This document shows, one piece after another, positions 52,520-64,000 of a stretch of 64,000 nucleotides of DNA (position 1 is its first letter; each line of letters opens with the position of its first letter). The stretch is from Blastococcus litoris (GTDB lineage: Bacteria > Actinomycetota > Actinomycetes > Mycobacteriales > Geodermatophilaceae): assembly GCF_003075095.1 (NCBI RefSeq), contig NZ_QCZF01000002.1:248001-312000 (forward strand), in the 5' to 3' direction. Under the pieces are notes generated by a model. It saw only the letters and a program-made list of their open reading frames with translations. It was not told where the DNA came from and did no database searches. Made by a program: the position numbers and the translations under genes.

Positions 52520-52804
52520 GTGCTGGGTGCTCCCTCGGAAGATGGTCCTGCGTGCGGCCGGCGCCCGCTCGGTCCCGCGCTGGACCGGGGGCGCACCGTC
52601 GTCGACGTCGGCCCTACCCGCTGCACACGCAGCAACAACGCGATCAACCCTAGTCATCCGCGCTCATGCCGCGACGTGGCCGGTGCGTCGTCCGGGCTAC
52701 AGTGGCCGGAGTTCACGTCCCCGGTTTCGGAGTGGCCCCCTCGTGCTCTTCATCTGGCCGGCAGCACCCTGCTGCCCGCGCGCCGCCGCGCACGAGGGCA
52801 CCCG
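52520..52804. promoter_or_regulatory. Divergent control region of tkt and ctaB
   Basis: Two plausible -10 boxes point outward: TAGGGT on the minus strand (52647-52652) for tkt and TACAGT on the plus strand (52698-52703) for ctaB. Neither has a good -35. The remaining bases hold no repeat or gene I can support. Confidence 0.4.
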
Positions 52805-53737
52805 GTGACGGCGCTGTCGGAGCGCCGCTCCGCCCCCGCCCACCGCGACCCGAGCTCGCTGCGCGCTCGCGTGAGCGCCTACGTGGCGCTGACCAAGCCG
52901 CGGATCATCGAGCTGCTCCTGGTGACGACGGTCCCGGCGATGATGCTGGCGGCCCGGGGCTGGCCGTCCCTGTCGCTGCTGCTGGTCACCCTGCTCGGCG
53001 GGACGCTGGCCGCCGGCGCGGCGAACGTCTTCAACTGCTACTTCGACCGCGACATCGACCGGTTGATGAAGCGGACCCAGAACCGGCCGCTGGTCACCGG
53101 CGCGGTCACCCCGAAGGCGGCGCTGGTCTTCGGCGTCGTGCTGACGGTGTCGTCGATCGTGCTGCTCGCGGTGACCACGACGCTGCTGGCCGCCGCCCTC
53201 GCCGCGGGCGCGATCTTCTACTACGCCGTGCTCTACACGATGGTGTTCAAGCGGCACACCCGCCGCAGCACCGAGTTCGGCGGCGTCCCCGGGGCGGCGC
53301 CGGTGCTCATCGGCTGGGCCGCGGTCACCGGATCGCTGGACTGGCCGGCCGTCGTCGTGTTCGGCATCGTCTTCTGCTGGCAGATGCCGCACTTCTGGGC
53401 GCTGGCCATGCGGTTCAAGGACGACTACGCGCGGGCCGACGTCCCGATGCTGCCGGTGGTGACCACCGACCTGTCGGTGGGCCGGCAGACCGTCGTCTGG
53501 GCCTGGATCACCGTCGCCGTCTCGCTGCTGCTGTGGCCGGTCGCCTCCGGTTACGGCATCGGGCTGGGCTACACGATCCCAGCGGCGCTGCTCGGCGGCT
53601 GGTTCGTCGTCGAGTCGCACCGCCTGCTCGGCCGCATCAAGCGCGGCGGCGAGACCAAGCCGATGCAGCTGTTCCACGTCTCGATCTCGTACCTGGCGCT
53701 GCTGATGGTCGCGATCGTCGTCGACGCCATCGTGTGA
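52805..53737 (+). CDS. ctaB: Protoheme IX farnesyltransferase (heme O synthase)
   Basis: Adds a farnesyl group to heme B, making heme O for the cytochrome c oxidase. 310 aa from GTG 52805 with GAGGGC six bases upstream. It is a UbiA-type prenyltransferase with nine helices: YVALTKPRIIELLLVTTVPA, the first aspartate motif NCYFDRDIDRLMKRTQNRPL, and the second MRFKDDYARADVPMLPVV. Its partner ctaA lies nearby on the other strand. Confidence 0.96.
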   Translation: MTALSERRSAPAHRDPSSLRARVSAYVALTKPRIIELLLVTTVPAMMLAARGWPSLSLLLVTLLGGTLAAGAANVFNCYFDRDIDRLMKRTQNRPLVTGAVTPKAALVFGVVLTVSSIVLLAVTTTLLAAALAAGAIFYYAVLYTMVFKRHTRRSTEFGGVPGAAPVLIGWAAVTGSLDWPAVVVFGIVFCWQMPHFWALAMRFKDDYARADVPMLPVVTTDLSVGRQTVVWAWITVAVSLLLWPVASGYGIGLGYTIPAALLGGWFVVESHRLLGRIKRGGETKPMQLFHVSISYLALLMVAIVVDAIV

Positions 53738-61173: not shown

Positions 61174-61629
61174 ATGCAGCTGGAGTCGATGTACCAGGAG
61201 ATCATCCTGGACCACTACAAGAACCCGCACGGGCGTGGCCTGCGCGAGCCGTTCGAGGCCGAGGTGCACCACGTCAACCCGACCTGCGGTGACGAGGTGA
61301 CGCTGCGGCTGCACGTCGAGGGCGACACCATCGCCGACGTCTCCTACGAGGGCATGGGCTGCTCGATCAGCCAGGCGTCGATCTCGGCGATGTACGACCT
61401 CGTCGTCGGCAAGACCGTGCCGGAGGCGCTCGAGACCGGCGAGCACTTCATGACGCTGATGCAGGCCAAGGGCGACCCGTCGGTCGCCGAGAAGCTCGAG
61501 GACGAGCTGGAGGACGCCGTCGCGTTCGCCGGCGTGTCCAAGTACCCCGCGCGCATCAAGTGCGCCCTGATGAGCTGGATGGCGTTGAAGGACGCCTCCG
61601 CCCGAGCCTGGGGAGGCACCGCAGCATGA
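61174..61629 (+). CDS. sufU: Zinc-dependent sulfurtransferase SufU
   Basis: A protein of 151 aa that accepts sulfur from SufS. The zinc/sulfur ligands are Cys38 and Asp40 in NPTCGDEV, the cysteine in GMGCSISQAS and the one in RIKCALMSW. The spacing with an extra insert before the last cysteine is the SufU rather than the IscU type. The stop overlaps sufT as ATGA. Confidence 0.95.
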   Translation: MQLESMYQEIILDHYKNPHGRGLREPFEAEVHHVNPTCGDEVTLRLHVEGDTIADVSYEGMGCSISQASISAMYDLVVGKTVPEALETGEHFMTLMQAKGDPSVAEKLEDELEDAVAFAGVSKYPARIKCALMSWMALKDASARAWGGTAA

Positions 61630-62021
61630 GCGAGACCACCGAGAACGTGACCACCGACGAGACCCCCGCCGAGCTGCCCGCCTACAAGTCGGCGCTCATC
61701 GAGGACGTCGAGGAGGCCATGCGCGACGTCGTCGACCCCGAGCTCGGTGTCAACGTGGTCGACCTGGGTCTCGTCTACGGCCTGGACGTCGCCGAGGAGG
61801 GGGCGTCGCAGGTGGCGATCATCGACATGACGCTGACCTCCGCGGCCTGCCCGCTGACCGACGTCATCGAGGACCAGGCGCGCCAGGCGCTGACCGGCGG
61901 CCCCGGCCCCGGCCTCGTCGACGACATCCGGATCAACTGGGTCTGGATGCCGCCGTGGGGCCCGGACAAGATCACCGACGACGGCCGCGAGCAGCTGCGC
62001 GCCCTGGGCTTCCGCGTCTGA
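61626..62021 (+). CDS. sufT: SufT-like metal-sulfur cluster maturation factor (DUF59)
   Basis: A protein of 131 aa. Acidic leader, then the DUF59/MIP18 domain (EEAMRDVVDPELGVNVVDLG, LVYGLDV; the cysteine in TSAACPLTDVI). It helps mature Fe-S proteins and closes the suf operon. A stem-loop follows. Confidence 0.93.
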   Translation: MSETTENVTTDETPAELPAYKSALIEDVEEAMRDVVDPELGVNVVDLGLVYGLDVAEEGASQVAIIDMTLTSAACPLTDVIEDQARQALTGGPGPGLVDDIRINWVWMPPWGPDKITDDGREQLRALGFRV

Positions 62022-62221: not shown

Positions 62222-62794
62222 GTGCTCGTCTCGGGGGTGTTGGTCGTGGATTGGGGCTCTGTGCCGGACTGGCTGGCCGGTGGAGGGACGATCACCGCGC
62301 TCGTGGCTCTGGGGGCGGAAGTGCGGCGGAACCGCCGAGCGAACGAGCAGCGCGGCCGGGAGGAGCGAGCCGCGGAAGCCCGTCGTCTCCAGGACGCGCG
62401 CGAACAGCAAGCGCGCGGAGTGACGGCCTGGGTGGAGGCGACCCAGACGGAGGAGCGCGTCCAGAACGTGCACGTGGTGGTCGCCAATGCGACGGCATTC
62501 GCAGTTTTCGACGTACGAGCTCGGCCGGAAGATCTGGGGCCACTGGAGGAGGCCGTCCTCCCCGTCGTGTCGCCCGGTCAGACCATGAGGACCAAGTCCT
62601 GGCTGGCCGTCGAGGTCCCGGAGGGGTACTTCTTCCGCGCGTCGGTCACGTTCTCCGACGCCCATGGTGTCCGCTGGATACGGCAGGGCGCCGACGTCTA
62701 CGAACTCACGTCTTCGCGATCCGAGCCCGCCGGCGGACGGCTGCCGGCTCAGACCTGGCTGAGCCACGTCGACAGCGTCGACCGGACGAAGTGA
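62222..62794 (+). CDS. Small membrane-anchored protein of unknown function
   Basis: About 190 aa from GTG 62222 (other GTGs follow within 30 bases). One hydrophobic segment near the N-terminus (DWGSVPDWLAGGGTITALVA) is followed by a basic, highly charged helix (EVRRNRRANEQRGREERAAE). Then comes a beta-rich domain (VHVVVANATAFAVFDVRARP, VSPGQTMRTKSWL). The layout of one helix, coiled segment and immunoglobulin-like end is common in actinobacterial accessory regions. Its final 46 bases overlap the end of the opposing gene. Confidence 0.65.
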   Translation: MLVSGVLVVDWGSVPDWLAGGGTITALVALGAEVRRNRRANEQRGREERAAEARRLQDAREQQARGVTAWVEATQTEERVQNVHVVVANATAFAVFDVRARPEDLGPLEEAVLPVVSPGQTMRTKSWLAVEVPEGYFFRASVTFSDAHGVRWIRQGADVYELTSSRSEPAGGRLPAQTWLSHVDSVDRTK

Positions 62795-64000
62795 AGGGCC
62801 GGACGTTCGTCCTCGTCGGGGGCCAGCATGCGCGACATCATGCGGCGCAGGTCGTTGTCGACGCCCAGTTGTACGAGTTGGCGTACAGGCGAGCTCGTGT
62901 CCGCGCAGCCGGAAGCTGACAACGGGTAGGGGTGCTCTCCATGCGGGTCGAGGGCCGCATACATGATCGCACCGAGGGCGAATACGTCGTCGGCGTGCTT
63001 GTGCGTGCCACCTGCCAGCCAGCGCTCGGCCTGGGCTTGCGGCCGAAAGCCGTTGGGGCGGAACGCCGTCCAGGGAGTCCGTCGACCTCTGCTGCCGTAG
63101 ACCCAGTCGGCGAGGAACACGCCAGAGCTGCCGCGGTCGATCACGTTCTCCGGCGTGAGATTCCCGTGGACCCAGCCGTCGCGCTCCTCCGCCTCGACGA
63201 GTACCGACAGAGCCTGTTGCGCGAGACGGACCACGCGATGGGTGTCCCGTGCCTCCCACTCCTGCGCCCGGTGGGCAGCTCCCTCGGACAGCCGCCGTCC
63301 TGCGCAGTGCAGGACGATGGCCCAGCGGTCGACGCGCTCCACGAACATGCCGACGGACGACGTCTGCGGGTCGTGGCCGACGGGGACGGCGTCGGTCAGC
63401 CCTTCGTCCCCCGGTCCACCGCTGGGACGCAGGTTACGGGCCTGGTAGATGACGGAGTCGCGCTCGAGGCCGATGCTCTCGCCGAACTCGTCGACGTCGT
63501 TGCGGATGATGCGAAAGCCCCGGTCGCGCAGGGCGGCGAAGTCCCGGCGGTCTTCGAGAGCGGCTCGCCTCATCTCCAAGTGCAGGGAGTTCTCGACGAG
63601 CCACCGGCGGAGGAGGCCGTTCGCCACCGTGACCGCGCCGTCGGCGCTGGACTGCAGGAGCCCGAGGCGGACGAACCGGTTGATCCCCTCCTCGTAGTCC
63701 GTACCGACGAGGTCGATGAGCTCGCGCATCGTGAGCCCATCGCCGTCCTCGTCGTCGGAGCCGTACACCGAGGCCAGATTCGCGAGCACTCGCTCCTGGT
63801 ACTCGTGCTCGCGTTCCCGGCCGAGCAGATGCTCCACGACCGTGCGTCCGCGGCGCACCAGCGCGTCGGCCGCCTGCGCCACGATGTCGGAGGAGACGAG
63901 CCTCCGCCGTCGTTCGTTGAGGACGCGGGCGACCTCGGCTCCCAACAGGTGCACGTGGTTCGGGTATCCGGCGGTCAAGTCCCAGAAGGCTTGGTGCGCG
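62749..64000 (-). CDS. C-terminal part of an NTPase-like protein fused to a degenerate kinase domain
   Basis: The frame is open from the right edge for about 416 codons. Visible parts in order: AHQAFWDLTAGYPNHVHLLG, typical of the helical lid of STAND/AAA-like ATPases; a winged-helix segment ending GAVTVANGLLRRWLVE; then a kinase-like domain. In the latter the catalytic loop is HGNLTPENV (63143-63169), where active kinases have HRDLKPEN, and LADWVYG replaces DFG. No clear beta-3 lysine is seen; the later KHADDVFALGAIMYAAL matches the SDVWSLG helix. So it is probably a pseudokinase. The P-loop, if any, lies beyond the window. Confidence 0.7.
   Translation of the reverse strand, partial: AHQAFWDLTAGYPNHVHLLGAEVARVLNERRRRLVSSDIVAQAADALVRRGRTVVEHLLGREREHEYQERVLANLASVYGSDDEDGDGLTMRELIDLVGTDYEEGINRFVRLGLLQSSADGAVTVANGLLRRWLVENSLHLEMRRAALEDRRDFAALRDRGFRIIRNDVDEFGESIGLERDSVIYQARNLRPSGGPGDEGLTDAVPVGHDPQTSSVGMFVERVDRWAIVLHCAGRRLSEGAAHRAQEWEARDTHRVVRLAQQALSVLVEAEERDGWVHGNLTPENVIDRGSSGVFLADWVYGSRGRRTPWTAFRPNGFRPQAQAERWLAGGTHKHADDVFALGAIMYAALDPHGEHPYPLSASGCADTSSPVRQLVQLGVDNDLRRMMSRMLAPDEDERPALHFVRSTLSTWLSQV

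Follow-up and report, generated by a model that had tools for sequence, protein, structure and literature searches.

The window analyzed here, a 64,000-nucleotide stretch of the Blastococcus litoris genome (G000:C2:248001-312000 in genome numbering), ends within a giant gene whose product could be a cytosolic STAND-type switch from a rare actinobacterial family, of which it would be a solitary, kinase-dead representative; to this reading, we give about even chances. The anatomy of the protein is that of a signal-transducing NTPase, with repeats, a switch, and an output, and the combination of superstructure-forming repeats with a P-loop NTPase in one chain is characteristic of STAND proteins. 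From the N terminus, it consists of a helical region, TPR-type repeats, a beta domain, a P-loop NTPase, a probable winged helix, and a kinase-fold tail. Coordinates of the features discussed are collected in Table 1.

Table 1. Features of the giant gene, its surroundings, and the partner genes of its homologs (positions are those of the window unless a locus, L, is named)
Feature	Position	Strand	Remarks
SufT-like FeS assembly gene	61560..62021	+	left border of the slot
190-codon ORF	62222..62794	+	second gene of the insertion; convergent with the giant gene, 3' ends overlapping by 46 bp
Giant gene, visible 3' part	62749..64000	-	residues ~1698-2113 plus stop
Pseudokinase tail	62752..63534	-	residues ~1853-2113; kinase profile, MkoA/PD-T4-6 profiles, model
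DFG equivalent, DWV	63100..63108	-	residues 1995-1997; Asp retained; alignments
Degenerate catalytic loop, HGNLTPEN (canonical HRDxKPxN)	63145..63168	-	residues 1975-1982; alignments
Probable winged helix after the NTPase	63586..63828	-	residues ~1755-1835
GYP, STAND-type GxP motif at the end of the NTPase	63961..63969	-	residues 1708-1710
NERD partner gene	L092:5720-8554	-	~930 residues
NERD partner gene	L091:12552-15332	+	~930 residues
NERD partner gene	L093:5590-8466	-	~930 residues

Domain architecture of the giant protein

Within the window, the giant gene appears as an open reading frame (62749-63999, minus strand) that runs open at the right edge. The genome sequence supplies the full gene, which occupies L002:5750-12091 on the minus strand as a single frame of 2,113 codons, uninterrupted by any internal stop or frameshift, and which starts with a GTG at L002:12091 (G000:C2:317090), beyond the window. 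The DNA to the right of the window, up to position 12091 of L002, encodes the Walker A and Walker B motifs, the beta domain, the TPR-type repeats, and the helical N terminus. No family match covers residues 1 to 450, and a linker rich in proline, alanine, glycine, and serine occupies residues 441 to 490. TPR-type matches extend over residues ~670 to 1350, with TPR_19 above its curated cutoff. The beta domain (residues ~1361 to 1450) has seven predicted strands in a model that was built without any covering homolog and whose pLDDT is mostly 64 to 83. A search across the whole protein found no transmembrane segment, and no effector domain was recognized in it.

The first-pass annotation, made from the visible C terminus, had proposed an NTPase that ends in a pseudokinase and had pointed rightward for its Walker motifs. 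Both motifs are present and intact upstream of the kinase-fold tail, as GPRQVGKT (residues 1505 to 1512) and VVLAIDE (residues 1595 to 1601), and they are conserved, as is GYP, in all three of the full-length homologs described below. The isolated NTPase matches AAA_16 above the Pfam cutoff (E = 2.9e-8), while a match to nSTAND1 (query 13-367, E = 1.8e-5) falls just below it. Among the matches listed for the NTPase model, which is weak (mean pLDDT, 55.6), the nearest solved folds are of the Orc/Cdc6-type AAA+ class (2qby; Z = 13.7, rmsd of 4.5, 279 residues aligned), and the archaeal Walker-type ATPase 2qen matches too (Z = 10.2); absence from that list does not exclude other folds. The GxP motif favors STAND, but the fold matches are Orc/Cdc6-like and the model is weak, so this NTPase is best described, with caution, as "STAND or Orc/Cdc6-like."

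A winged helix probably follows the NTPase, as the first-pass annotation had suggested. The region aligns with the C-terminal domain of related NTPases and with the homologs from the other genus, although it is modeled only with low confidence (pLDDT under 50).

The tail is too divergent for a significant match to Pfam Pkinase (E = 0.35). A profile built from 13 bacterial kinases matches it with an E value of 2e-19, which is not fully independent evidence, since those kinases were recruited with the giant protein itself. The MkoA and PD-T4-6 kinase profiles of the PADLOC defense set match it as well (E = 1e-10 and 6e-6, respectively). An AF2 model, the alignment for which included the same 13 kinases, has a mean pLDDT of 68, with most of the C-lobe at 85 to 96 and a poor N-lobe; Mycobacterium tuberculosis PknB leads the solved structures that match this model (Z of about 20). 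Profiles and model thus agree on a kinase fold, and no unrelated fold emerged.

Alignments, in which kinases and NTPases were treated separately, set the tail against kinases and against the full-length homologs. They uphold the earlier description of a catalytic loop in which the Asp of HRD is Asn (HGN) and the Lys two residues on is Thr. Likewise, neither a beta-3 VAIK Lys nor a glycine loop was visible in the tail when sought. The earlier reading of DFG as ADW, however, was off by one residue: LTDFG aligns with LADWV, so that DFG corresponds to DWV and the Asp is kept. This metal-binding Asp is retained along with the catalytic-loop Asn, the alpha-F Asp, and the C-lobe Arg, and the kinase-fold residues HG, PEN, DW, DD, and RP are preserved while catalytic positions have changed. 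With a kinase fold and the loss of both the VAIK Lys and the HRD Asp, the tail is a pseudokinase. The first-pass reading of an NTPase that ends in a pseudokinase therefore holds, the NTPase being of the STAND class or of the closely related Orc/Cdc6 class. The loss of these two residues and of the catalytic-loop Lys makes phosphotransfer unlikely. The tail may bind a nucleotide or metal, and it could be a nucleotide-binding switch, as the first-pass annotation suggested, because the DFG Asp and the catalytic-loop Asn are kept. It could also be a scaffold, another of the earlier suggestions; for the tail as a sensor of phage kinases, we found no evidence.

Homologs with a coupled NERD gene

The gene is very sporadic. 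Genome searches, for which the C-terminal 649 residues served as the query, found no other homolog in the family, same-genus genomes included (1 of 115 family genomes carries the gene). Samples of 399 genomes from the order and 396 from the phylum, searched with the NTPase or C-terminal query, yielded none, nor did 297 genomes of the class searched with the TPR part. Scans of genome contigs and of plasmid, phage, and viral collections found no homolog either, and a search of the open-access literature returned no account of the family.

Three homologs were found among 296 genomes of another actinobacterial genus, probably Streptomyces, the genomes of which are large (mostly 7 to 11 Mb). These proteins (L091, L092, and L093; E = 4e-33 to 7e-33) have 2,743 to 2,759 residues, are 73 to 80% identical among themselves, and can be aligned with the giant protein from end to end at about 29% identity over the whole alignment. 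They share its order of helical N terminus, TPR, beta-rich domain, NTPase, winged-helix region, and kinase tail, as well as the NTPase motifs GPRQVGKT, IDE.Q.LLD, LGSCSF, and GYP.HVH.

The tails differ. Those of the homologs keep VAK, HGD, the Lys, the Asn, and DWG, and their kinase is predicted to be active, although neither a glycine loop nor an unambiguous alpha-C Glu was seen in them. A tree joins the B. litoris tail with the homologs' kinase, on long branches and with support of 83/52 only, and several generic kinases give the tail a higher score than that kinase does. The tail could, therefore, have been swapped. Common descent of the tails would rest on the co-linearity of the proteins, the tree being undecided.

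In all three genomes, the stop codon of the homolog overlaps the ATG of a partner gene by 4 bp (ATGA), and synteny around the pair is conserved. In the partner protein, two degenerate kinase-like regions (Pkinase, E = 6.7e-6) flank a NERD nuclease domain (E = 1.2e-6), and the PglW, MkoA, and PD-T4-6 profiles match the protein as well. Its putative catalytic residues, DVD and ECK, are conserved in all three copies. An origin of the partner by tandem duplication was considered and rejected, as a profile comparison of its halves gave trivial overlap only. Together, the homolog and the NERD gene, which are translationally coupled, look like an undescribed two-gene operon. The partner query found no match in the B. 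litoris genome, and its relatives gave matches to the kinase region only. These comparisons suggest that, ancestrally, the output may have come from a kinase in partnership with a NERD nuclease. We propose, from this one case, that the absence of the partner and that of the catalytic residues may be coupled in B. litoris.

An accessory slot beside the SUF operon

The slot between the SufT-like gene and an SCO7613-type membrane gene measures 7.1 kb and holds two genes only, the giant gene and the 190-codon ORF, for which no family match was found. In same-genus relatives, the same slot spans about 95 bp (G006) or 114 bp (G013). Moreover, codon usage of the two inserted genes is atypical, with a GC3 of 0.83 to 0.84 versus 0.94 to 0.97 in the adjoining conserved genes. 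The giant gene and its small neighbor are an accessory insertion, and the accessory boundary placed here by the first-pass annotation is confirmed by this comparison of the slot among relatives. Other relatives carry an AI-2E transporter, a PhoD phosphatase, MDMPI-type, GNAT, or royal-jelly-like genes in the slot. Because this cargo is not defense related, the location gives no support for a defense function, and the contents of the slot in relatives do not support a defense hotspot; the slot is a general one, not a defense island. A scan of the neighbors, which include SUF, SCO7613-type, and ABC-F genes, among others, found no defense genes beside the giant gene.

The SCO7613_CTERM multipass membrane genes form a pair (L002:12147-16139, minus strand) beside the SUF operon, conserved in much of the family, and the slots around this pair are variable. 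Relative G015 has about 9 kb of additional DNA between the two SCO7613-type genes (L056, 2810-12043), a stretch with unclear gene calls. The pair was considered as a partner of the giant gene, but this idea is unsupported, as the pair is conserved in relatives without the giant gene. Farther along, a 216-codon TPR protein gene of low GC3 (0.87; L002:17935-18585, minus strand) lies between the ABC-F and enoyl-CoA hydratase genes, and no such gene was seen in most relatives. The lowest GC3 among the long ORFs of the window (0.67) belongs to an ORF at 52697-53677 on the minus strand.

Possible function and relation to known systems

If the giant protein is a STAND-type switch, its repeat half would sense or hold a ligand, ATP binding and exchange at the NTPase would drive assembly, and the tail would be the output. 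The tail of the homologs would do this as a kinase that either acts on the NERD partner or docks to it. The B. litoris tail would provide a noncatalytic docking surface or a nucleotide-gated surface for some partner. We tentatively extend this scheme, in a form that we consider somewhat unlikely, to a conflict system of two genes, so far undescribed, in actinobacteria: a TPR-STAND-kinase giant would signal to a translationally coupled NERD nuclease that has two degenerate kinase-like regions, and B. litoris would have a derived, partnerless form of the system with a noncatalytic pseudokinase.

A defense role for the giant protein is possible. The earlier inference of such a role draws some weak support from the NERD-coupled homologs with their PglW-like parts, while the general slot and the solitary gene do not favor it. 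A rather unlikely version is an anti-phage sensor, the TPR of which recognizes an invader molecule, the STAND NTPase of which oligomerizes, and the pseudokinase of which recruits a toxic effector encoded elsewhere. The recurrence of the same modules in conflict systems (PMC7159879), the coupling of homologs to the NERD protein, the match of the tail to defense-kinase profiles, and the accessory nature and codon usage of the gene are all consistent with this idea. Nevertheless, the protein has no recognized effector domain, the NERD partner was not found in this genome, relatives hold ordinary genes in the slot, and no homolog turned up in the plasmid, phage, or viral collections; also, the three homologous loci lie in conserved synteny and not in a mobile island.

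The combination of TPR, a STAND-like NTPase, and a winged helix is common to regulators. PknK-type proteins have the order kinase-ATPase-repeat, the reverse of the giant protein, in which repeats come first and the kinase last. A MalT- or PknK-like signaling scaffold that serves transcription, stress, or development as part of ordinary physiology and takes no part in conflict would suit that combination, the syntenic retention in the other genus, and the lack of defense neighbors. We judge it distinctly unlikely, given the sporadic distribution (1 of 115 genomes in the family and 3 of 296 in the other genus), the insertion with atypical GC3, and the nuclease-like partner of the homologs. Finally, it is very unlikely that the gene is a decaying remnant on its way out, with its partner lost and its kinase tail drifted: kinase residues and partner are indeed both missing here and both present in the homologs, but 2,113 codons are free of stops and frameshifts, and the NTPase motifs and kinase-fold residues persist beside changed catalytic positions, a pattern that looks selective rather than random.

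Returning to the STAND-type switch, known systems share parts of its design. PglW of type 2 BREX likewise unites a pseudokinase, winged helices, and a STAND/Orc-Cdc6-like domain in one large protein (PMC12839542), but its NTPase motifs are degenerate, whereas those of the giant protein are intact; the giant protein has no NERD match, and no BREX genes were found nearby. The homologs' partner resembles PglW in its NERD and kinase-like parts. Tandem inactive and active kinases with NERD occur in PglW (PMC12839542) and in DndF (PMC10853773); inactive kinases thus have precedents beside NERD and other nucleases.

Kinase domains of actinobacterial conflict systems are mostly catalytically disrupted and are taken to be nonenzymatic (PMC7159879). 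The kinase effectors of vWA-MoxR ternary systems have, like the tail, disrupted catalytic residues and sometimes lie beside a wHTH (PMC7159879); no vWA, MoxR, or third component was found among the scanned neighbors of the giant gene, and the insertion consists of two genes only. CP1 pseudokinases, compared by description only, are also degenerate kinases fused to a predicted ATPase (COG3899) without a transmembrane region, but they occur mainly in cyanobacteria and proteobacteria (PMC12599244). ActPs2 pseudokinases of actinobacteria are marked by a beta-3 Lys-to-Arg change, an HRD Asp-to-Asn change, a long activation-loop insert, and a C-terminal transmembrane region; the tail shares only the Asp-to-Asn change, with neither the long insert nor a transmembrane segment. 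Judged by their published descriptions, PglW, DndF, the ternary systems, and CP1 are all set apart from the arrangement of the giant protein.

If our reading is right, the homologs, with motifs and a nuclease-like partner, and the B. litoris protein, with neither, form a natural pair for learning which role is left to the kinase domain of a STAND-type protein once catalysis is gone. The operon would then be a candidate nuclease system that shares its parts with PglW and DndF but distributes them over two coupled genes, and the proposed nonenzymatic role of actinobacterial conflict kinases would become directly testable.

A 410-residue ATPase (L016) was considered as a member of the same family and rejected, as its profile returned stand-alone ATPases only; the NTPase class is shared, the family is not. 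Such stand-alone ATPases of ~410 residues (L069-L079, L082, and L016), with the motifs GERGVGKT and GLPHYTHLL, are widespread on viral contigs and in bacterial genomes and are distant relatives of the giant protein's NTPase.
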